From a virus: a DNA stretch of 46,085 nt. Of this stretch, positions 5,336-46,085 are shown one piece after another. The DNA lies in IMG/VR virus record IMGVR_UViG_3300041955_000186, positions 1-46,085 of that record; one strand, written 5' to 3'. Position numbers and translations under genes: made by a program. Below the pieces are notes generated by a model. That model saw only the letters and a program-made list of their open reading frames with translations. It ran no database searches and was not told the DNA's origin. Position 1 is the stretch's first letter. The number at the start of each line of letters is the position of its first letter.

Positions 5336-6865
5336 ATGGCTCGCAGTTCAAGAAAGTTGCTCGCACGGCGTGACGCGGCGATCGCTTCTATAGAAGCTCT
5401 CGCCAAGCTCGCGACCACCGAGGACCGCGAACTGACGCCGGAGGAAGTCCAGAAGCGCGACCGCTTCGAACGTACGGCCCGCAAGCTCGAGAAGCGTGCA
5501 GTTACTGCACGCGTCGACGAGAGAGTGGCCAAGCGCGAGAAGGCGGCCGAGGCTCGTACGGACCTCGGGACCGACTCCGCCCCTACGAACAGCAAGGGCG
5601 GGGCCGTCAAGGTCACGGGTAGCGAACGCGTGTACCGCGAAGGCGGACCGTATCACTACCTGACCGACCTGACGCAGAAGGCTCTCGGGAACTCCGACGC
5701 AGCCGAGCGGCTTGCCCGCCACGCCAAGGAAGTCGCAGTCGAGGCTTCCGAAGCCGAGGCGCGCATCCGTTCGGGGTCCGCTCGTCCGTTCGACCGTTAC
5801 TTCGTGCGGCAGGTCCGCGCGGGTATGGGCGCCTCCGGCGCCGGCCCGTACGAGGCTCAGTTCCGCGCCTTGTCGACGGCCGCCGGTAGCGGTGGCGAGT
5901 TCGTCCCGCCCGCGTACCTCACGGCTAAGTTCGTGCCGTTCGCTCGACCGGGTCGTCCGTTCGCCGACTCGTGTACGTCCGAAGAGCTTCCGCCCGGCAC
6001 CATGTCCATCAACATCCCGAAGGTCTACGGAGGGACTGCGGTGGAGACACAGGGCACCGGGAACCCGCGTTCACAGAACGTGGGCGTGCAGGACACCGAC
6101 CTCGAGACCGAATACGTCACGTTCCCCGTCGTGACCGTGGCCGGTCAGCAGGTCTTGTCCTTGCAGCTCCTCGAGCGTTCCCCTGTTCCGTTCGACGACG
6201 TGACGTTCCGCGACCTCACTCTCGCCCTGGCTCAGAAGGTGGACTTCAAGTGCATCGCTGGCCCCGGCGCTGGTGACGTTCTCGGCGCGCTGAACACGCC
6301 GAACGTGGTCTCGGTGGAGTGGGACGCCGTCGAAGAGGGCGATGCAGGCGTCATCCCTGACCTTCTCGGAGCCCTTTCGGGTGCCAAGGCGGCAGTGGCC
6401 AGCCAGCGGTTCTTGCCCGCCACGCACGTGTTCTTCACTCCCGATCGTTGGGAGTGGGTCGAGCAACAGACCGACAAGAACGGCCGTCCTTTGATCGTTC
6501 CGACGACAAACGGCCCGTTCAACGTCGCGCAGGTTGCTCCCGAAGCCGGAATCGCCGAAGGCGAAACTGGTGGACGCATCCAGGGCCTTCGTTCGTTCCA
6601 GGACTTCAACATCCCGGCGAACCTCGGCGAGGGTGCGAACCAGGACGCGATCGTGGTCGCCAAGATGGACGACTTGTATCTGTACGAGTCGCCGATCGTG
6701 GCACGCGCACTTCCGCAGACGCTCGGGCAGCAACTGTCCGTCGTCCTACAGGTGTACGAGTACATGGCATACACGGCGGCTAGATACCCCGTGTCGGTCG
6801 CGTACGTTACCGGCACCTACCTGACGAACCCGGTGGCCTTCACCGGCGTTACCGTCACTCCCTGA
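5336..6865 (+). CDS. major capsid protein (HK97 fold, with N-terminal scaffold region)
   Basis: A 509-residue protein. The ATG is preceded by a good ribosome site (aaggagacacaac). Residues 1-180 are highly charged and helical, resembling the delta/scaffold domain removed by the protease encoded upstream. From about 185 (STAAGSGGEFVPPAYLT) the sequence has the usual phage-capsid pattern: FVPPAY at the N-arm, a P-domain spine, ETEYVTFPVVTVAGQQVLS, LERSPVPFDDVTFRDL and the C-terminal DLYLYESPIVARALPQTLG region. About 310 residues remain after the scaffold part, normal for a HK97 capsid. Cleavage near residue 180 is inferred. Confidence 0.93.
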   Translation: MARSSRKLLARRDAAIASIEALAKLATTEDRELTPEEVQKRDRFERTARKLEKRAVTARVDERVAKREKAAEARTDLGTDSAPTNSKGGAVKVTGSERVYREGGPYHYLTDLTQKALGNSDAAERLARHAKEVAVEASEAEARIRSGSARPFDRYFVRQVRAGMGASGAGPYEAQFRALSTAAGSGGEFVPPAYLTAKFVPFARPGRPFADSCTSEELPPGTMSINIPKVYGGTAVETQGTGNPRSQNVGVQDTDLETEYVTFPVVTVAGQQVLSLQLLERSPVPFDDVTFRDLTLALAQKVDFKCIAGPGAGDVLGALNTPNVVSVEWDAVEEGDAGVIPDLLGALSGAKAAVASQRFLPATHVFFTPDRWEWVEQQTDKNGRPLIVPTTNGPFNVAQVAPEAGIAEGETGGRIQGLRSFQDFNIPANLGEGANQDAIVVAKMDDLYLYESPIVARALPQTLGQQLSVVLQVYEYMAYTAARYPVSVAYVTGTYLTNPVAFTGVTVTP

Positions 6866-22019: not shown

Positions 22020-22042
22020 GCTCCCTCGAATCGTGGTAGACT
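22015..22042 (+). promoter_or_regulatory. integrase promoter, leaderless
   Basis: CTGACG (22015-22020), 16-base spacer, TAGACT (22037-22042), then only five bases to the ATG. The -10 matches the actinobacterial consensus TANNNT, and the short distance implies transcription starts at or next to the A of the start codon. Confidence 0.6.
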
Positions 22043-22047
22043 GGTGT

Positions 22048-22959
22048 ATGACACTGGGCGAAGTTCTCGACGCCTGGCTCGAGGCCGCGCGGCCGCGCCG
22101 CTCGGCGTCGACCGTTCAGGGCTACATATACAAGGTGAAGCGGATCAAGGCCGGGCTGGACGCGAGCCGTCCGGTCGACGACCTGACGGCCCTAGACCTA
22201 GATCGGTTTTACGCCGCCCTGCTCGAGGAGGGCTTGGCGCCGGCCACGGTCCGTCAGGTCCACGCGATCTTGTCGGCCGCGCTCCACCAGGCCGAGAAGT
22301 GGGAGCTGGTCCGGCGCAACGTCGCCCGACTGGCGAGCCCGCCGCCCCTGGACCGACCTAGGCTCCCGGTGCCGACCAAGGCCGAGGTCCGCGAGCTGAT
22401 CCGAACCGTCCGAGCCGACTCATACTTAGCGGTCGCGGTAACACTGGCCGCGGCCACCGGAGCTAGGCGCGGCGAGCTGTGCGCCCTCACGTGGAACGAC
22501 GTCGACTGGGACGGGTCGGCCGTGACGGTATCCAAGGCCGTGCAGCTCTCCAAGGGTCACAGGACGGTCGGATCGACCAAGACCCACCGCTCCCGACGCG
22601 TGGCTCTCGACGCCACGACCCTCGGCGCCCTTCGTGCTTGGCGGTTCGCGTGCGGAGATCCGCCGGCGGTGTTCTACGTGTTGGGCGGCCTGGCGCCGAT
22701 GCACCCGGACGCTCTCTCGAGGGACTTCCGAAAGCTGTGCGGTGGTCGGTGGCGCTTTCACGACCTCCGGCACTTCTCGGTTACCGAGTTGGTAGCCGCC
22801 GGCGTCGACGTCAGGACGGTCGCCGAGCGCGTCGGCCACGCCCGAGCGACCATGACCCTCGACCGATACGCGCACGCGCTACCCGAGCGAGACCGCGAAG
22901 CCGCAGACGTGCTCGAGTCCGTCTTGACGTCCGATACCAACCGCGTCCCGGAATCGTAA
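22048..22959 (+). CDS. int: tyrosine recombinase (integrase)
   Basis: A 303-residue enzyme for site-specific integration. ATG 22048 fits the promoter and the SAM-like N-terminal core-binding domain (LGEVLDAWLEAARPRRSAST). The catalytic set is complete: Arg140 (TGARRGEL), Lys178 (STKTHRSRRVAL), His238 and Arg241 (FHDLRHFSVTEL), His264 (ERVGHARATMT) and nucleophile Tyr274 (LDRYAH). It stands alone on the + strand between two leftward operons. No excisionase was recognised. Its presence indicates a temperate phage. Confidence 0.95.
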   Translation: MTLGEVLDAWLEAARPRRSASTVQGYIYKVKRIKAGLDASRPVDDLTALDLDRFYAALLEEGLAPATVRQVHAILSAALHQAEKWELVRRNVARLASPPPLDRPRLPVPTKAEVRELIRTVRADSYLAVAVTLAAATGARRGELCALTWNDVDWDGSAVTVSKAVQLSKGHRTVGSTKTHRSRRVALDATTLGALRAWRFACGDPPAVFYVLGGLAPMHPDALSRDFRKLCGGRWRFHDLRHFSVTELVAAGVDVRTVAERVGHARATMTLDRYAHALPERDREAADVLESVLTSDTNRVPES

Positions 22960-29872: not shown

Positions 29873-29950
29873 TCACCTCCGCTCTCGCGTGACGCTGACC
29901 ATGCGTGTATCGGCACGTTCGCGCCAAAACTTGAGCGTTACTTTTTTCAC
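29873..29950 (-). CDS. 25-residue micro-ORF
   Basis: GTG at 29950 overlaps the primase-helicase TGA (GTGA), encodes MKKVTLKFWRERADTRMVSV plus five residues, and stops exactly within the ribosome site of the next gene (AGGTGA). The double coupling and lack of other explanation for the gap suggest a translated relay peptide. Supported only by position. Confidence 0.45.
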   Translation of the reverse strand: MKKVTLKFWRERADTRMVSVTRERR

Positions 29951-32418
29951 GCGGCCTCACCTCGCGCTACCAAGTGGCCGAGGCCGGGTACCAACAAGTA
30001 ACGGTGATACTCCGGGTGTTTCCGTTCGACTGCGTCGTAAGCTTGCACTAGCCACGCTGCTACGGCACGCGAACCGCCGGGCATCGGAATATCGCGTTCG
30101 CGCTTGGTCCACGAACACAACGCTCCGGGCTTTACGGCCAGGTCCGGCCCCATGTTCCACACGATCGGTACGTTGTTACGGTCGACGTGGCCGGCCGCTT
30201 CCGCTATGGCTTCGAGAATCGGAGGACGGTCGGCTGTAGCCAAGTGCGCGGCCTTCACTACGGATTCGTCGAACGGCGGCAAGTCACAGCCGCAGACTTC
30301 CTCCGAGAACTGTCGAAGCAGCGAGTAGCCCCACTCGGCCACTGCTCGAGCTTGACGTTGTCTGTCCGGTATGGCCGGAGGAGCCGGCAGCTCTCCGAGT
30401 CGAATCAAGTACAAGAGCCACGACAGGTAGGCGTTCCCGAACCCTTCGTGCGACAGGCTGACTACGCGGCCGAGCGCGACTTCGTCGCGGCCCTTGGAAG
30501 GCATCGGCACCATGACCATACGTTCGGCGTGCGCCGTCTCGGAGAACGTGTCTTCTCCGGTAACTGCTATCGGAGCACGTGCCGGTAGCTTCTTGATGTG
30601 CATACGGTTTTCGCTCAAGCCGCCCTTGATGGTGGCCGACCCATCCCACGCGTCGCGGATTACTTGGTCGAGAGCTAGCTTCGCTTCCGGTCGGGCGCCG
30701 GGCCGGTACTCGTCGAACCACATCGGAATGGCGTTCGTAGATCCCGCGTAGCTGTGTACGGCGTGCGCGGTGGTTCCGGTTAGCGTCGTCGGATTGGTGA
30801 CCCAAAAGCCGAACGCTTCGAGGATCGTGCCGAGTAGCGTGGTCTTGCCCCATCCCGAGCCGCCGGTCACGGCTAGCGTCGGGAACTTCGGGACCATAGA
30901 ACGCAGCGGCGCCGCCGCCACCCATCCGAGAACCGGTGTCACTATCTCCGGCTTGTGCAGCCGAGCCAACGCCGACGGTAACTCTCGGTCCCAGTCGTCG
31001 CTCGAGCCCAGTCGAATCGACTGACCGAGGTCGACGTCGTTTTCGGGCGGCACGTATCCCCAACCGCTGTGACCTATCACGGAGTCGGGTAGCACGAACG
31101 CTTCTTCGTGAAGTCCGACTACGTCTGTTCCTCGAACACGCGGGGCCAGTAGAGCCCTGGTCTTCAACAGCTCGAGCAGGTCGGCCAAGTCGCGGTCCGT
31201 TCCCTTCCAGGACAGCAGACGATCGGCGGCCCAACGACGCATCCGTCCGGAACTGGACAGCTCGGCACCGGTCAAGAAGTGTCGGCGTCCGTTTCCGGGA
31301 ACCGACACCTCGAACACTACGTGAGCCTCGCTGGTTTCCATCATTACCAGTCGGCGCGGCGTCAAGACGAAGTCCGACAAGACCACGTCCGGACGTTCGT
31401 CCGAGGTCGACTTGCGAACATAGCGTCCTCCGGACTCGGCTATCGGAAGCGTTCCGGGGTCGACTACCGGCCAAGCTTCTCGAAGGGCTCTCAGTACGAG
31501 AGCCTGTCCGGCCGCCGTGGCGTCCATTCCGTCCGGAAGGCATACCACTCGAACGGACGCTGCCCTCGATGGAAGAGCGGCTACCCACGACGCGGCGCAT
31601 CCTCGGCCGGCTTCGTCGGCGTCGAACAGTAGCGTGACGTGCTTTCCGGCCAACGTGTTGAGCCACTCCGGGCGCGGTTCCTTCACTCCGGCCGGAAGTC
31701 CGAGCACGTCGGCGTCGACGGAGTTTTCGTGGAGAAGCCAAGCCGTAGACCACGTGTCGGTTTCGCCTTCGCACACGACGACGAACTGCCGAGAAGTTCC
31801 GCGCCACGTGCCGTAAAGCTGCGACAGGTCGCTTCCTCGAACTGCTCGGTGCTCCCAGTCCGGCACGAATCGACGCTTGACGCCGACCAGCTCGCCGGTA
31901 GGCGCGTAGTGAGGAATCAAGACCGCGTCGTCGGTGCCGACTACGCCGAACTCGTCGTGAACCCACACGGCCGGCGCTACTACTCCTCGGTCGAGGAGCA
32001 TGGACTCGAGGGACTCGATACGGTCGGCCTCTTCCAACATCCGACCTAGGTCCGGAGTCGGCCCGGCGGTTCTCGGCGCTGGCACCGGCTGGTCCGGTAG
32101 TCCGCCGTCCCTAAGTTCGACGGCCAGGCGCTTGGCTTCCTTGAAGTCGCACCCGTGCCAACGTTCGAGGAAGTCGAACAAGTCGCCGCCGACGTCGCAC
32201 GGCCAACAGCGGAACCTTTGCGAGCCGTCGCTCCCCGTGTAGACTCGGAGCGACGGCTCGTGGTCGTCGTGGAACGGACACAGCCCGGCTAGCTCCCCGT
32301 TGCCGGCGTCCTCGAGTGCTACACCGTAGTGAGTTAGGACGCCGGCGAGCGGAGCCGCCGCTTTGATGGCTTTCGGGTCGTGTCCGGCCGAAGCGGCCGC
32401 GTAGTCGGTCGTGGTCAG
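29947..32418 (-). CDS. primase-helicase (CHC2 zinc finger, Toprim, P-loop ATPase)
   Basis: About 823 residues. The N-terminal zinc finger has Cys47/His50 (CPFHDDHEPSLRVY) and Cys71/Cys74 (FRCWPCDVGGDLFDFLERW). The Toprim domain has Glu217 (VVVCEGETD) and DAD at 266-268. The C-terminal part has Walker A GGSGWGKTTLLG (519-530), as in DUF927-like phage helicases. It would prime and unwind at the phage fork. No ATG, GTG or TTG suits the N-terminus: CTG at 32418 overlaps the upstream TGA as CTGA and gives MTTTDYAAAS, whereas ATG 32484 would run 22 codons inside the membrane gene. I favour the CTG start. Confidence 0.9.
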   Translation of the reverse strand: MTTTDYAAASAGHDPKAIKAAAPLAGVLTHYGVALEDAGNGELAGLCPFHDDHEPSLRVYTGSDGSQRFRCWPCDVGGDLFDFLERWHGCDFKEAKRLAVELRDGGLPDQPVPAPRTAGPTPDLGRMLEEADRIESLESMLLDRGVVAPAVWVHDEFGVVGTDDAVLIPHYAPTGELVGVKRRFVPDWEHRAVRGSDLSQLYGTWRGTSRQFVVVCEGETDTWSTAWLLHENSVDADVLGLPAGVKEPRPEWLNTLAGKHVTLLFDADEAGRGCAASWVAALPSRAASVRVVCLPDGMDATAAGQALVLRALREAWPVVDPGTLPIAESGGRYVRKSTSDERPDVVLSDFVLTPRRLVMMETSEAHVVFEVSVPGNGRRHFLTGAELSSSGRMRRWAADRLLSWKGTDRDLADLLELLKTRALLAPRVRGTDVVGLHEEAFVLPDSVIGHSGWGYVPPENDVDLGQSIRLGSSDDWDRELPSALARLHKPEIVTPVLGWVAAAPLRSMVPKFPTLAVTGGSGWGKTTLLGTILEAFGFWVTNPTTLTGTTAHAVHSYAGSTNAIPMWFDEYRPGARPEAKLALDQVIRDAWDGSATIKGGLSENRMHIKKLPARAPIAVTGEDTFSETAHAERMVMVPMPSKGRDEVALGRVVSLSHEGFGNAYLSWLLYLIRLGELPAPPAIPDRQRQARAVAEWGYSLLRQFSEEVCGCDLPPFDESVVKAAHLATADRPPILEAIAEAAGHVDRNNVPIVWNMGPDLAVKPGALCSWTKRERDIPMPGGSRAVAAWLVQAYDAVERKHPEYHRYLLVPGLGHLVARGEAA

Positions 32419-32570
32419 GACCCCTTCGGACCGCGTATGTACGCGGCGGTGTACCACGTAGCGGCCAAGAACCCAAGCGTCCACAGGTAGCCGAGCGCCG
32501 GAACTTGGTGGTACGTGTGGCTAGCTCCGCCGAGCAGCAGAGTAAACAGCCACGCCAGTACGAATATCAT
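32415..32570 (-). CDS. 51-residue two-helix membrane protein
   Basis: ATG 32570, eight bases after the previous stop. Two hydrophobic segments (IFVLAWLFTLLLGGA and YLWTLGFLAATWYTAAYI) separated by a short polar turn, ending RGPKGS. Predicted hairpin in the membrane. Sits between the recombination and primase genes; function unknown. Its stop overlaps the putative CTG start of the primase-helicase. Confidence 0.75.
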   Translation of the reverse strand: MIFVLAWLFTLLLGGASHTYHQVPALGYLWTLGFLAATWYTAAYIRGPKGS

Positions 32571-32577
32571 CGCGACT

Positions 32578-33108
32578 TCACAGTCCGGGCGGCAGGTCTG
32601 GCGGTCCGGTGGCTACGGCTGTAGCTACTGCCGGAGCTGCTACCGCGACGGCAGGAGCCGCCACGGCTACTTCCGGAGGTGCTGTCGTCGCCGGCACGGT
32701 CGCGGGCTTGATGTTCTTGACCTCGTCGCGTACACGGCCTTGGTACGGCTTGCCGGGGCCGACAGTTATCACGGCTCGGCGACCGAGGAGCGTCTGACAG
32801 ATCAGAGCTTCCTTGTTAGCTTCCGGCAGGCCGGCGAAGAACGCGGCGTCGAGACCGAGAGCGGCCATCTTGCCGAAGAAGTATCCGACCGAGTTCGGGT
32901 TTTCCAGCTTCAACGTGAAGTTGGTAAACACCTTGCGGTTCTTGTGCGGACCGTCGACGATCGTGAACTCGATCCGATACATCGGATTGTCGTTGCTCGA
33001 AGGTCGATACTCGGCGTTGGTGATTTCCGCGTTGTAGTCGATCGCCGGCAGCGGTTCGAGTCCCTTCGCGGCTTGGGCGGCCAGCAGGCCGTAGTCGACG
33101 GTTGCCAT
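32578..33108 (-). CDS. DUF669-like single-strand-binding / recombination protein
   Basis: A 176-residue protein; ATG from the TGATG overlap. PLPAIDYNAEITNAEYRPSS, MYRIEFTIVDGPHKNRKVFTNF and VGYFFGKMAALGLDAAFFAG match the beta-barrel pattern of phage DUF669-type proteins, which accompany Sak4-like ATPases and bind DNA. The C-terminal 40 residues are a low-complexity Ala/Val/Pro repeat (VAVAAPAVAVAAPAVATAVA), resembling the flexible tails of SSB proteins. Directly downstream of the ATPase. Confidence 0.8.
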   Translation of the reverse strand: MATVDYGLLAAQAAKGLEPLPAIDYNAEITNAEYRPSSNDNPMYRIEFTIVDGPHKNRKVFTNFTLKLENPNSVGYFFGKMAALGLDAAFFAGLPEANKEALICQTLLGRRAVITVGPGKPYQGRVRDEVKNIKPATVPATTAPPEVAVAAPAVAVAAPAVATAVATGPPDLPPGL

Positions 33109-33875
33109 CAAGCAGTCTCCTCTTCGTTGTAGACGGCGAGCATTTCCTCGACGTCGGGATTTGTGATGCACGCTCCGTACCGAACGGACAACACGTGTGT
33201 GCGGTCCTTGGCTTCGGAGAACTGTCTAGGGTGAATCAACATACGGCGCCACTCTGCGCCGGAGTCGTCCACCTGTACGAACATGTACCCTTCTACGTCC
33301 ACGTAACCGGGTAGCGACACGCTCAGTCCGCCTTGAATAGCCGGCCTGTTCATGGCGCGCTTGACGTCGGTAAGAGCCAAGAACACCACTGCTTCGAGCG
33401 GGTGGGTCGGATGGAACACCAGGTCGCGCATGTGGCGTACCGTGAACTCCATCTTGTCGAGGAGTCGGCCCCACTTCGCCTCGGTCATCCCTTCGTCGCC
33501 GGCGAGGATCGCGTCCTTACACCGCTTCTGAATCTCGGTTAGCGAGTCGACTACTACCGACTTGAATGGATGAACTCCGAACTCGAGCCAGTTGTACGAC
33601 TTCTCCAACGTCTCGAAGCTTCGAACGATCGTGTGGCACACTTGCCAGTCGCCGAGTTCGGGCGGGTCTTCGTGTTGTGGGTCCCACTCGATCACACGTT
33701 GACGCGTCGGCACGCCGTCCACTAGGCGCCACGGCTTGACACTTCCGCCCTCGGCGTCCAAGACGAGTCGCGGCTCCGGGGTCGTCTGACCGAACCACGA
33801 CTTGCCGACTCCTCCTTCGCCGTGAGCTAGCACGGCTAAGCCACGCCACCCTTCGGGTCGCTTTGTGTTCGTCAT
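33108..33875 (-). CDS. Sak4-like RecA-fold ATPase
   Basis: A 255-residue protein; ATG 33875 is ATGA-coupled. Walker A GEGGVGKS at 19-26, Walker B SVVVDSLTEIQ near 135, and the later HMRDLVFHPTHPLEAVVFLAL and MFVQVDDSGAEWRRMLI stretches fit the AAA_24/Sak4 family of phage single-strand annealing ATPases. With the SSB-like protein and the Cas4/RecB nuclease it makes a recombination cassette. Confidence 0.88.
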   Translation of the reverse strand: MTNTKRPEGWRGLAVLAHGEGGVGKSWFGQTTPEPRLVLDAEGGSVKPWRLVDGVPTRQRVIEWDPQHEDPPELGDWQVCHTIVRSFETLEKSYNWLEFGVHPFKSVVVDSLTEIQKRCKDAILAGDEGMTEAKWGRLLDKMEFTVRHMRDLVFHPTHPLEAVVFLALTDVKRAMNRPAIQGGLSVSLPGYVDVEGYMFVQVDDSGAEWRRMLIHPRQFSEAKDRTHVLSVRYGACITNPDVEEMLAVYNEEETA

Positions 33876-36724: not shown

Positions 36725-37166
36725 GCGGCGCCTCCATACGTCCAGTACGAACCATCCACAGCATAAGGTGTCGGAGTGCGTCGTTGGCGTGACCCAAGCC
36801 GGGGCGGTACCATCCGGCGGCCTTGAGTCGTGCGTTGGTGGCGAACTCCTTGGCGTCGAACGGCGTCTGCAACTTCTCGAGAGTGACGTTGTCTCGCCTG
36901 TCGGCCAACGACCGAACGGCTCCGATCACGTGCAGTGCGTCGTACTGACGTGTTAGCTTGGTAGTGCGCTCGGATATGTTGTACCGTTCGCATACGACGT
37001 GAACGTCGTAGTCTCCGTACAATCCGGCCCAGCTCTCGAGAGCCCGGACCAGTTCTCCGAACGGCATTTCGTTGGCGCTCGGACGCTGCTCGTGTGTGGC
37101 TTCGTAAGCCGCTACTCCGGTGGTCAGTCCGGGGTCGAGTGCGATAAGTAGCTCAGTCTTCCGCAT
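36717..37166 (-). CDS. RuvC-like Holliday junction resolvase
   Basis: A 149-residue protein. RNase H fold acids: Asp11 (IALDPGLTTGVA), Glu60 (VVCERY), and HANDALRHLMLW with His126 and Asp129. This is the standard actinophage RuvC-like resolvase, which cuts branched DNA before packaging and during recombination. Overlaps the polymerase stop by 14 bases and the helicase start by 8. Confidence 0.88.
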   Translation of the reverse strand: MRKTELLIALDPGLTTGVAAYEATHEQRPSANEMPFGELVRALESWAGLYGDYDVHVVCERYNISERTTKLTRQYDALHVIGAVRSLADRRDNVTLEKLQTPFDAKEFATNARLKAAGWYRPGLGHANDALRHLMLWMVRTGRMEAPRA

Positions 37167-38880
37167 ACTTGTCGCCCCATCTTTCGTGAAGAATCGAATA
37201 GCTAGCCGGCATAGGAACCGTGAGGTCGTCGCGGTACATGATCCGTCTAGCTTCTTCGGCGAACTCTTCCGCGTCCCCCTTCGGAACGTCGAAGACGAGT
37301 TCGTCGTGTACCGGAAGTACGAGGTGCTCGGTAAGTCCGGCGCGGTCTAGCCGAACTATCGACTGCTTCAACACGTCGCCGGCCGTGCCCTGCACCAAGT
37401 AGTTCACCAGCTTGTAGACCTTGTCGGCCGGCACCACTTGGCGTCGACCGAACGGAGTAAGCGCGTAGCACACGCCTTCTTCGGCCGCTCGCATCGTGGC
37501 TTCGTGTTGCACCTTCTGTTGCCAGACTTTTACGCCGGGAAACGTGGCGTCGTATCCTTGGAGGAACGCCGCCGCGGTGGAGTCGTCTACTCCGGCCGTA
37601 ACTGCGAACTTGTGAAGACCGGCCAAGTACGCCTTGGCGTAGGCGGCTTTCTTGATAAGCGAACGTCTTGGGTCTTTCTTCTCGAACGTCGGTTCGTCGT
37701 ACAGTCGACGGCCCATGTTCACGAAGAAGTCGCCCTCGGACGCAAAGGCTTCGATCATTCCTTGATCTTGCGAGAAGTGTGCTACGAGGCGCTGTTCTAT
37801 TTGGTCGTAGTCGAGGCTAACCAGCACGTGACCTTCTCGAGGAATGAACGGGTCGCGTACGAGCTTGCTCCGCGGTATCTGTTGCAGAGCCGGTCGCTCG
37901 GCCGACATACGTCCGGTGCGTGCGCCCATACAGTTGATGCTCGTGTGCAGAATGTCGCCGTCCGCGTACTCGACGTAGTTCCCAAAGTACGCGTTGGCGT
38001 AACGGTTCAGCTTTCGAACGTTCAACACCGCCTTGGCGAGAGGATGGTCGAGACCTTCTAGGACTTCTTCGTCTACCGACCAACTACCGCCGGCCGTTCT
38101 CTTGGTGAGGAGCACGCCGTCGGACATGAGTTGCGCCGACACTCGCTGGTTTTGTCCGGGACCGAATCCGTAACGTTCCTTGCACCAAGCCGTCGTCTGT
38201 TCGGACACGGCCAACAGCTCGGCGCGTTTGGTTTCGCAGTAGGGAACGTCGACGCGGATACCTCGACGCTCCATGGCGTCGACTACGTTCGAGCACGCCA
38301 TTTCCATGTCGTACAGTTCGGCCTGTGCTCCGACGATTTGTGGCTCGAAGAGTTCGTACAGGTGCACCGTCAGTACCGGATCGAGCGCGGCGTACGCCCA
38401 GTACGCCGTAACCCATACCGGAATCGTGCGCCAGTTCCACATACCCTTCGTCATGGCTCGAGCTAGTTCGCTCTTGCCTTGCTCGGCTCCGGGGTCTACG
38501 TACTTGACGCCTAGATACTTGAGTCCGGTCTTTTGGTCCGGATGCAATAGGTGCGCCATGGTGATGGTGTCGTGTACGTTCTCGCGACGCAGGGTGCAGC
38601 CGTTCGTCTCGAGGTATCGGACGTCGAACTTCGAGTTATGAAACACGATCGGCCTGTCGTACCTGTGCAACGCGTGCATAGCGAGACCACCCCACAGCTC
38701 CCACGGAACGGCCCATCCGTCGGCCAGGTCTCCGAACTGAACCAAGCGCAGCGGCTCGCGCCACCAGTCGAATCCGCCGGTCTCGGTATCGCAACCGAGA
38801 ATCTGCCGACGTTCGCCTAACCAACGCACGAAAGCTTCGGCGTCGAAGAAGTCCTCTACGAGGTGAAGCTGCGCCTGCAC
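37153..38880 (-). CDS. DNA polymerase I (family A) with 3'-5' exonuclease
   Basis: A 575-residue protein. Exonuclease domain intact: Asp31/Glu33 (DTETGG), Asp86 (HNSKFDVRYL), and Tyr163 with Asp167 (YWAYAALDPV). Polymerase motif A SLDYDQIEQRLVAHFS (Asp357), motif B RSLIKKAAYAKAYLAG with Arg406, Lys410, Tyr414 and Tyr418, motif C LPVHDELVFDVP (His525, Asp526). There is no 5' nuclease domain. The O-helix position usually held by Phe in bacterial Pol I is Tyr414, as in T7 polymerase, a substitution known to relax discrimination against dideoxynucleotides. GTG overlaps the upstream TAG. Confidence 0.95.
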   Translation of the reverse strand: MQAQLHLVEDFFDAEAFVRWLGERRQILGCDTETGGFDWWREPLRLVQFGDLADGWAVPWELWGGLAMHALHRYDRPIVFHNSKFDVRYLETNGCTLRRENVHDTITMAHLLHPDQKTGLKYLGVKYVDPGAEQGKSELARAMTKGMWNWRTIPVWVTAYWAYAALDPVLTVHLYELFEPQIVGAQAELYDMEMACSNVVDAMERRGIRVDVPYCETKRAELLAVSEQTTAWCKERYGFGPGQNQRVSAQLMSDGVLLTKRTAGGSWSVDEEVLEGLDHPLAKAVLNVRKLNRYANAYFGNYVEYADGDILHTSINCMGARTGRMSAERPALQQIPRSKLVRDPFIPREGHVLVSLDYDQIEQRLVAHFSQDQGMIEAFASEGDFFVNMGRRLYDEPTFEKKDPRRSLIKKAAYAKAYLAGLHKFAVTAGVDDSTAAAFLQGYDATFPGVKVWQQKVQHEATMRAAEEGVCYALTPFGRRQVVPADKVYKLVNYLVQGTAGDVLKQSIVRLDRAGLTEHLVLPVHDELVFDVPKGDAEEFAEEARRIMYRDDLTVPMPASYSILHERWGDKYAED

Positions 38881-43918: not shown

Positions 43919-44839
43919 TCAGCTCCGATTTCCGCTAGGGATCGGCGGCGCGGGCGGAGGTGTCGGCGGCGTAGCCTGCTTCACAAGCCACGCGATAGCC
44001 GTCCGCAAGTCCTGGAAGTGCGCTTGCGCCTCGGGAGTAGCTAGAAACTCGGCTAGTGCGACGTGTGCGCCCTTCACCTGTGCTTCGTTGGCCCACCACG
44101 CCCAAGCCTGCAAGGACTCCGGGCCGCGTACGAGGAACAGCGCGTACCACAACAGCGACATGTACAGCGCCGTGGCTTGGTCGTTCGGCAGTACCGACGC
44201 GTCGGTGGCGAACACGGTGAGCCCGTCGGTCACTTGGTCCGTCGGCTGCTTGCCGGGGAACCAAAACGTGTCTATGAAGCCGTCGCGCAGACACACGTCT
44301 TCGTCGAAGTCGCTCGTCGGAACTCCCGGAATGCCGACCGTCGGCGACAGGCGTTGATACAGGGCGGCGTTCGCCGTGTCGACTTCTCCGCCGCTCCAAG
44401 CCACCGTCTGCCAGTGGTCGTTGCCGAATCCCCACTCGGCCAACGCGTCGCAAATGGCGGCGTCTCCGTAACCCTTGACCGGACGTAGGCCGGCCGACTG
44501 CGCTCCGAGGAAGTACGCCTTGACCGAGTTCGGGTCGACCTCTTCGTCTACGGCGTAGAACAGCGGAACGTCGGACGGGTACCCGAGAGAGTCGGCCTGC
44601 GAGTTGGCCGCGGACGCGTCGTCGTATCCGGCGCCACCTCCGGCGGTGGCTCGAGTGGCAGTCGTCTCCCACGCGCATCGAACGCCGAGACCGACTACGC
44701 CGAGTGCTTGCGCCTCGGCTTGGGACAGGTTCTTCGTCGGGTCGGTACTTAGGTAGCGCACGACGCCTTTGTAGCCGGCCGCCGCTATGGCGGCAGGACT
44801 AGGACGCGTCCACGCGTAGTCGATTACGAGGTCGCTCAA
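43919..44839 (-). CDS. DUF1906 glycoside-hydrolase-like protein (lysis candidate)
   Basis: A 306-residue protein; TTG start 44839 behind AAGGAGCC, since the frame has no ATG or GTG nearby. VIDYAWTRPSPAAIAAAGYK, GVVRYLSTDPTKNLSQAEA and PLFYAVDEEVDPNSVKAYF match the DUF1906 (Rv2525c-like) TIM-barrel domain found in actinobacterial secreted enzymes and actinophage lysins; Asp97/Glu98 in the third motif are candidate catalytic acids. A helical domain and a Pro-rich tail (PPTPPPAPPIPSGNRS) follow. Likely acts on the peptidoglycan/arabinogalactan envelope. It lies on the leftward operon, far from the tail-side peptidase. Confidence 0.82.
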   Translation of the reverse strand: MSDLVIDYAWTRPSPAAIAAAGYKGVVRYLSTDPTKNLSQAEAQALGVVGLGVRCAWETTATRATAGGGAGYDDASAANSQADSLGYPSDVPLFYAVDEEVDPNSVKAYFLGAQSAGLRPVKGYGDAAICDALAEWGFGNDHWQTVAWSGGEVDTANAALYQRLSPTVGIPGVPTSDFDEDVCLRDGFIDTFWFPGKQPTDQVTDGLTVFATDASVLPNDQATALYMSLLWYALFLVRGPESLQAWAWWANEAQVKGAHVALAEFLATPEAQAHFQDLRTAIAWLVKQATPPTPPPAPPIPSGNRS

Positions 44840-45025: not shown

Positions 45026-45282
45026 TGGTCGATCGACTCCTGGTAGGCGATGCCGAACACGAGAGCCGCGATCTTGAAGGCGCGGCGACGCTGCTTGCAC
45101 CAACGAACGTTCTCGACGTTGGTCGGATCGTCTAAGAGCGTGTGCTCGGCGGCGGCCCACCTGTCCAAGAGAGTGTGAGCCCTAGCTCGAGCCGTCTCGA
45201 CGCCGCCGCCGGCTTGGTGCAGTTGAACTAGGCCGTGCTCGGCCTTTCGAAACAGCTTCTCGCTCTTGGCGGCTTCGCTCAC
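45022..45282 (-). CDS. 86-residue helical hypothetical protein
   Basis: GTG 45282 overlaps the Pup stop (GTGA), so it is coupled directly to Pup. Entirely helical with KSEKLFRKAEHGLVQLHQAG, ARARAHTLLDRWAAAEHTLL and KIAALVFGIAYQESI. No family recognised. Immediate partner candidate for the Pup-like protein because of the coupling (inference). Confidence 0.72.
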   Translation of the reverse strand: MSEAAKSEKLFRKAEHGLVQLHQAGGGVETARARAHTLLDRWAAAEHTLLDDPTNVENVRWCKQRRRAFKIAALVFGIAYQESIDQ

Positions 45283-45476
45283 TGTCCTCCTGACTGGACG
45301 AATCCTCCGACGAACGCTTGAGCGTTCTCCTCGAGAACGCGGTCGATCTCGTCGAGCAGCTCTTCGGTCTTGGAGTCCAGCTCTTCGACCTCCGGACGGT
45401 CGGTCGGCTTCGGAGTCTCGGGCTCCTCGGTCGCAAGATCGACTACAGGCTTTCGAACTTGTGTCCGTTCCGGCAT
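45279..45476 (-). CDS. pup: prokaryotic ubiquitin-like protein Pup
   Basis: A 65-residue protein of normal Pup length. The C-terminal 30 residues have the complete Pup signature: ELLDEIDRVLEENAQAFV followed by GGFVQSGGQ, ending GGQ. By family knowledge the final Gln is deamidated by Dop to Glu and ligated by PafA to lysines of targets for the proteasome, while the helix before it docks on Mpa/ARC. The N-terminal half is acidic and disordered (EEPETPKPTDRPEVEELDS), also typical. The VQKGGQ lysine of mycobacterial Pup is Ser here. Leaderless-looking ATG; first gene of the leftward operon. No PafA, Dop or proteasome gene is in the window, so it would rely on the host. Confidence 0.93.
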   Translation of the reverse strand: MPERTQVRKPVVDLATEEPETPKPTDRPEVEELDSKTEELLDEIDRVLEENAQAFVGGFVQSGGQ

Positions 45477-45482
45477 ACTTCG

Positions 45483-45521
45483 ACTATGACACGCTCGACG
45501 AAGTCGTGTGCGACAAACACG
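45483..45521 (-). promoter_or_regulatory. Pup operon promoter (motif copy A)
   Basis: On the minus strand TTTGTCGCACACGAC (45517 to 45503), 14 bases, CATAGT (45488-45483), six bases CGAAGT, then ATG of pup. The dyad GTCG-CACA-CGAC covers the region -38 to -27 relative to the ATG. The spacing to the ATG is exactly 26 bases, identical to copy B. No SD, so leaderless initiation is likely. Confidence 0.65.
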
Positions 45522-45594
45522 ACCGACGGTGTACTAGCTGTCGGAGGTCTAACCGATGGTACACCGCCGACTTCGCGTATCGCGTGGTCGACAC

Positions 45595-45884
45595 GGACAG
45601 TTCAGGACGCTTCGGGACAGTTCAGGACAGTTCACGAAACGCGTCCGCGAAACAAGACACCAGGTAGACATAAGGATTAGACAGGACAAAGGACAGTTGG
45701 ACAGTTCACAAGAGATATACACCACGTGAGAAGAAGGGTCGTCTCTCTCGTAAATACTCGGTCGGTGTATGTCCGCGGGCTCTAAACCGTCTGAACTGTC
45801 CAAAACATAGTCTGACCTGCCAAAACATGCGTTTTTCGACCTCTCCGAACTGTCCTGAACTGTCCAGGCCGTCCCGAACTGTCC
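45595..45884. repeat. inverted clusters of GGACAGTT(C) repeats
   Basis: Plus-strand copies GGACAGTTCA at 45595, 45615, 45625 and 45699, and GGACAGTTGG at 45691. Minus-strand copies (TGAACTGTCC or CGAACTGTCC) at 45792, 45846, 45856 and 45875. Copies are often directly abutting (10-bp steps at 45615/45625 and 45846/45856). Around 45791-45827 there is also a longer direct repeat ending CCAAAACAT. The left cluster points right and the right cluster points left, with the centre at about 45740. Confidence 0.85.
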
Positions 45885-45899
45885 ACGACGCGCGTGCGA

Positions 45900-45938
45900 C
45901 GCGTTTGTCGCACACGACGTGCGTGCAGGTGAGACAAT
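45900..45938 (+). promoter_or_regulatory. rightward promoter (motif copy B)
   Basis: TTTGTCGCACACGAC at 45904-45918, then GACAAT at 45933-45938, six bases AGAAGT, then ATG at 45945. Same 15-base motif, same 26-base distance and same AAGTATGCCG start context as the Pup promoter. Points to coordinated control of the two divergent transcription units. Confidence 0.65.
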
Positions 45939-45944
45939 AGAAGT

Positions 45945-46085
45945 ATGCCGGGCGAGCCGGAAGGTGGCCCGCAAGAACTCACGCCGGAACAGGCGGCGGC
46001 TGCCACAGCCGAGTTCTTGCGGAAACTCGACGACAACGACCAGGCTCTTCCCGAGAACTTGCCGCTAGCGCCTCTGTACACGTTC
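45945..46085 (+). CDS. rightward gene, cut by window edge
   Basis: ATG 45945 with the duplicated promoter upstream; 47 codons are open to the window edge. Begins MPGEPEGGPQELTPEQAAAA and continues with helical acidic sequence (EFLRKLDDNDQALPENLPLA). Too short to classify. Position before the presumed terminase/portal side of a circular map makes small terminase or another early packaging gene possible (inference only). Confidence 0.7.
   Translation, partial: MPGEPEGGPQELTPEQAAAATAEFLRKLDDNDQALPENLPLAPLYTF

Follow-up and report, generated by a model that had tools for sequence, protein, structure and literature searches.

Facing octamer repeats in a divergent gap of a probably temperate phage point to a probable replication origin

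Genes around the array

The window, by which we mean the whole stretch of DNA analysed, is an entire IMG/VR record of 46,085 bases; a search of the phage collection for DNA-level relatives of it returned none. A rightward head-tail module contains portal, protease and tape measure genes, while the leftward module encodes DNA polymerase A, a helicase, a nuclease, an SSB-like protein and an 845-aa primase-helicase. Because the record also holds a tyrosine integrase, the phage is probably temperate.

Close to the right end of the record, two genes diverge from a 468-bp gap, bounded by the ATG at 45476 on the minus strand and the ATG at 45945 on the plus strand. The gene on the left is Pup-like, which, judging by where Pup occurs, we take as a sign of an actinobacterial host; the phage group probably infects actinobacteria.

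The leaders of the two genes form a 59-nt inverted repeat, 71% complementary, with the exact 16-mer GTTTGTCGCACACGAC in both. The -10-like hexamers CATAGT and GACAAT stand at -12 to -7 from the respective ATG, and from their sequence we read the leaders as putative leaderless promoters. They look like two copies of a single promoter, produced by duplication and inversion.

An array of facing octamers

Nine exact copies of the octamer GGACAGTT occupy the gap: five right-pointing ones (45595-45706), followed by four left-pointing ones (45794-45884; Table 1). The original prediction of about nine repeats in two face-to-face clusters is borne out, as is its remark that several copies follow one another in 10-bp steps. 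This step is exact twice (45615-45625 and 45848-45858), one step measures 8 bp, and copies with two mismatches at 45605 (+), 45785 (-) and 45839 (-) prolong the stepping at 9-10 bp.

Under a first-order model, 0.015 exact copies are expected in the gap and 1.4 in the whole 46-kb record. In 40 random first-order sequences of 46 kb, two-orientation clusters reached 4 copies at most, whatever the octamer, versus 9 here. Outside the gap, the record has exact copies only at 6732 (-) and 8179 (-), and a second cluster of GGACAGTT, comparable to crr of phage P4, was not found in it.

The iterons sit between the two putative promoters and overlap neither -10. Such a placement is in keeping with an origin or upstream regulatory site, and not with promoter-overlapping operators. 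The centre of the array is low in G+C: for the 150 bp from 45640, only 52 of the 4594 windows of the record have a lower value, and the two rightmost right-pointing iterons fall inside this region. The minimum of the cumulative GC skew coincides with the array; being confounded with gene (transcription) direction, GC skew was rejected as proof of an origin.

Table 1 Features of the record that bear on the array, in order of position.
Feature	Position	Strand	Remarks
Tyrosine integrase	22033-22959		
Candidate initiator, CHC2 zinc finger + Toprim + DUF927 primase-helicase, 845 aa	29947..32484	-	PF01807, PF13155, PF06048
Single-strand DNA binding protein-like, leftward replication module	32578..33171	-	phrog_378, E=1.8e-12
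DNA polymerase A, leftward replication module	37153..38880	-	phrog_17, E=5e-119
Left flanking gene, Pup-like protein, 65 aa, C-terminal GGQ	45279..45476	-	PF05639, E=1e-13
Left (pup) leader: GTTTGTCGCACACGAC (45503-45518), putative -10 CATAGT, start codon region	45470..45528	-	inverted copy of right leader
Iteron GGACAGTT	45595..45602	+	exact match
Degenerate iteron GGACGCTT	45605..45612	+	2 mismatches; 10-bp register
Iteron GGACAGTT	45615..45622	+	exact match
Iteron GGACAGTT	45625..45632	+	exact match
Low-G+C centre, candidate melting region	45640..45793		G+C 0.51 vs about 0.61 for the record
Iteron GGACAGTT	45691..45698	+	exact match
Iteron GGACAGTT	45699..45706	+	exact match
Degenerate iteron AGACGGTT	45785..45792	-	2 mismatches; next copy 9 bp away
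Iteron GGACAGTT	45794..45801	-	exact match
Degenerate iteron GGAGAGGT	45839..45846	-	2 mismatches; next copy 9 bp away
Iteron GGACAGTT	45848..45855	-	exact match
Iteron GGACAGTT	45858..45865	-	exact match
Iteron GGACAGTT	45877..45884	-	exact match
Right leader: GTTTGTCGCACACGAC (45903-45918), putative -10 GACAAT (45933-45938), ATG 45945	45893..45951	+	
Right flanking gene, runs off the record	45945..46085	+	apparent orthologue in cousin G001, 45% identity over 31 aa

The octamer in other contigs

Viral contigs were scanned by pattern for further dense clusters of GGACAGTT, and such clusters were found in contigs with a G+C content of about 0.39 to 0.71. An all-against-all protein comparison of these contigs brought out one widely common family, the D5-type SF3 helicases, in a blast cluster that also took in DNA polymerases, linked to it via fused ORFs. 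PF08706 was present in 9 of the cluster contigs, versus 1 of the 17 two-copy controls, and a D5 gene was found at none of the control loci obtained with a scrambled octamer.

As a rule, the cluster follows the 3' end of the D5 gene within about 60 bp or, where the ORFs are fused, falls in the linker right after the C-terminal winged helix of the D5 part; in one contig (G005) it is 1.7 kb away from the D5 gene. Helicases of other classes are accompanied by the octamer as well. It is found just 3' of AAA_25-type helicase genes in three contigs (L014, L144 and L189), it overlaps the 3' end of a VapE-type helicase gene in another (L143), and it lies about 41 bp 3' of a DUF927 helicase gene of Desulfovibrio piger (L113). 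Alongside four clusters (G004, G012, G008 and G018) no helicase was recognised. Three copies in the same direction are not special by themselves, a scrambled octamer giving 66 matches against 50. A text search of the literature for the octamer brought up no phage-origin work among the matches listed.

Two of the fused loci, L034:3201-7883 and L067:1637-6427, are single ORFs of about 1560-1597 aa with a D5 helicase, and their iteron array is encoded within the protein linker that follows it; the ORF of L034 is also fused to a DNA polymerase A (PF00476).

The scan of bacterial genomes (L083-L151) showed GGACAGTT in interspersed elements, in 20-37-bp steps and many per genome, in Woeseiaceae, Pseudomonadales and Saccharopolyspora. 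These elements are probably REP-like and unrelated; most of the bacterial matches, having such steps and recurring on many contigs of one genome, were set aside.

Arrays in the flanks of helicase genes

We also sampled D5 and DUF927 genes regardless of the octamer GGACAGTT. Of 77 D5 genes, 56 were followed within 500 bp of their 3' end by a two-orientation octamer cluster of at least 4 copies; stretches taken as controls from the same loci had one in 3 of 385 cases. Many different words make up these clusters. The idea of a universal octamer was rejected, as the phages differ in their words and four copies of GGACAGTT occur at none of the 80 loci of the D5 survey.

The DUF927 genes came from whole genomes of two taxa, and the threshold was set at 5 copies or more. 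Clusters in both orientations followed 17 of the 31 genes (controls, 3 of 155); several of these loci are near-copies of one another, which leaves about 12 independent words. One word, GGGACAGT, is used at two DUF927 loci, including the above-mentioned locus of D. piger.

Cousin phages

The DNA polymerase and helicase of a cousin phage, G001 (IMGVR_UViG_3300048817_000011), are 57% and 53% identical to those of the present one. Its array, about 260 bp long (L078:9967-10227), consists of three or four copies of AGTGTAG facing three others, with an AT-rich core between the two sets. It lies directly upstream of an apparent orthologue of our right flanking gene, an orthology drawn from 31 aligned residues of the N-terminal part (45% identity).

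Both arrays thus have facing sets and apparently the same right neighbour. They differ in the word and in the core, which is strongly AT-rich in G001 and only moderately so here, at a G+C of 0.51; the primase-helicase of G001 is a D5 protein instead of a DUF927 one, and its left neighbour gene runs rightward, whereas pup runs leftward. Site and geometry appear to have been kept while the word and the helicase class differ.

Two other cousins, G040 and G041, have DUF927 primases that are 50% and 46% identical to the present one. Neither the octamer GGACAGTT nor a comparable array was found in them, and other genes stand on the right of their divergent gaps, which hold AT-rich elements and inverted repeats. 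The original prediction would have counted the absence of the copies from close relatives against itself: the octamer is indeed absent from G040 and G041, and the geometry is kept in G001. In origins of this class the geometry is constant and the word is not, since each phage can have another, so that the absence of the octamer is a poor test of the array. The lack of it in these two cousins is what chiefly weakens the link between GGACAGTT and the DUF927 protein.

The gaps of both these cousins (L263:11163-11264 and L264:14619-14671) carry an AT-rich element, TATATAAGGGTA, which in G040 lies inside a 29-nt inverted repeat; they are possible origins of another design.

Comparison with known origins

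Two SCCmec proteins each have a relative among the SaPI Rep proteins: Cch, which contains DUF927, in SaPIbov1, and Cch2, of the D5_N type, in SaPI5 (PMC7581432). SaPI Rep uses its C-terminal domain to recognise iterons that lie directly downstream of the rep gene, and the C-terminal domain of Cch2 binds the putative origin of its element (PMC7581432). The origins of PICIs comprise two sets of iterons that flank an AT-rich region (PMC6092414).

The array resembles the pri-rep-ori arrangement of SaPIs and PICIs in its short iterons, which form two sets on either side of a centre that is low in G+C though not strongly AT-rich, and in the DUF927 helicase encoded by the element itself. In SaPIs and PICIs, however, the origin lies directly 3' of rep, whereas our array is about 13 kb away from the primase-helicase gene, in a divergent gap; no array was found 3' of this gene (3' end at 29947, array at 45.6 kb). 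Moreover, the element here is a phage with head, tail and DNA polymerase genes of its own. We call the array a variant of the SaPI/PICI type and not a member, because it is not directly 3' of the gene.

Phage P4 (NC_001609) has annotated type 1 octamers in two places, 3' of alpha and in the gap that separates its leftward and rightward operons. Its crr and ori share with the present array the 8-bp repeats in both orientations, the steps of about 9-11 bp and the cluster in a divergent gap; the P4 word is a different one, TGTTCACC, and P4 has its second array 3' of alpha. An alpha-like D5/SF3 helicase was not found in the record, PF08706 and a local D5 profile giving no match, nor did searches for Prim-Pol and D5_N find either. 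Thermoanaerobacterium phage THSA-485A (NC_018264) likewise combines a two-orientation array with a primase-helicase made of a CHC2 zinc finger and DUF927; unlike here, its array, ten copies of GGTAACC, comes directly after the CHC2+DUF927 gene, about 27 bp 3' of it, and the word is GGTAACC(GA). A stem-loop origin of the pRN1 type (PMC4234260) was discarded, since short iterons stand out in the gap, and not a long stem-loop.

A candidate origin and its putative initiator

We consider it probable that the octamers are origin iterons bound by the phage's own primase-helicase. The array is best explained as an origin of a known type, the SaPI/PICI/P4 kind, in an unusual place, and the DUF927 protein (29947-32484) is likely the direct binder of GGACAGTT. 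Compared with DUF927 helicases that have adjacent arrays, it gives a profile match over its primase and helicase parts with a probability of 98.5%. The alignment with the DUF927 profile ends before the C-terminus of the protein, where a winged helix was not found; a D5-type wHTH profile had no match in the record. These points count against the explanation, together with the distance of about 13 kb from the gene, the two DUF927 cousins that lack the octamer, the modest AT-richness of the centre and the short alignment behind the orthology of the right flanking gene.

In the mechanism that we propose, GGACAGTT would be the iteron of the primase-helicase, and the DUF927 protein would most likely recognise it through a DNA-binding domain near its C-terminus. 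The right-pointing and the left-pointing set would each load a helicase, resulting in two facing rings over the low-G+C centre, which they would then open. Two forks could start there, one moving towards the leftward replication operon and the other towards the rightward head genes. For a phage group that probably infects actinobacteria, this amounts to a concrete prediction of both origin and initiator.

The main functional rival is that the repeats are cooperative operators, from which a repressor or activator would govern the two divergent promoters in an immunity or lytic switch. The tyrosine integrase of a probably temperate phage and the position between promoters with matching leaders both suit it; even so, we hold it to be improbable. 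The repeats overlap neither -10, the promoters have a different common element, GTTTGTCGCACACGAC, outside the iterons, no repressor was recognised among the ORFs scanned, and the arrays of the comparison set stand 3' of helicase genes and not at promoters. Mycobacteriophage stoperators, in temperate actinophages, are short asymmetric repeated sites dispersed over the genome. The GGACAGTT copies are likewise short and asymmetric, but they are not dispersed, because only two occur elsewhere versus 1.4 expected in the whole record; the genome-wide scan for isolated copies that had been proposed thus shows no excess over chance. Between the two roles originally envisaged, origin and immunity switch, the two-set geometry, the helicase-flank surveys and G001 lend the former good support, and the position of the iterons off the promoters, together with the lack of dispersal, disfavours the latter. 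A partition site (centromere) of a plasmid-like prophage would also consist of short repeats clustered in an intergenic gap. We regard it as very improbable, given that the phage has an integrase, that no ParA or ParB was seen among the ORFs scanned (some small ORFs lay outside the scan) and that comparable arrays associate with helicase genes.

There remains an alternative that shares the origin claim and differs in the binder alone, namely that the helicase is recruited to GGACAGTT by another protein bound there, either a host factor or a small phage protein that went unrecognised. The same octamer is found beside four helicase classes, cousins with the same primase family are devoid of it, and a long distance separates the array from the primase gene. 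On the other side, both Rep of SaPIs and Cch2 of SCCmec are binders of their own iterons (PMC7581432), and no protein family other than the D5 helicases is widely common among the octamer-bearing contigs; a universal host factor is also hard to reconcile with words that vary freely from one D5 or DUF927 locus to the next. Overall, a separate binder seems unlikely to us, if less so than operators, and we retain the primase-helicase as the probable one.

More tentatively, the origin could, in this lineage of actinophages, be a fixed address that is re-keyed when the helicase is exchanged, with DUF927 and GGACAGTT here, D5 and AGTGTAG in G001. If this is true, initiator and iterons switch together across unrelated helicase families, with position and facing geometry kept, away from the helicase gene. 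The pair formed with G001, in which apparently the same site has another word and another helicase, makes the co-evolution of initiator and origin directly testable.

Other features of the record

Near the start of the leftward operon, the gene at 43919-44839 (-) encodes an Rv2525c-like glycoside hydrolase domain and matches phage endolysin families. An ORF of 490 aa at the left end of the record, for which no PHROG or Pfam match was found, contains three direct repeats of 53 nt that have diverged from one another (1-53, 163-215 and 469-521).

The left neighbour of the array is the gene for Pup, a prokaryotic protein resembling ubiquitin. A literature search listed nothing that obviously described Pup in a phage. 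A second viral contig, of 70.6 kb, also has the gene (L003:9956-10144, plus strand, E=1e-16), its product ending in GGE. A Pup of phage origin could redirect the host proteasome.
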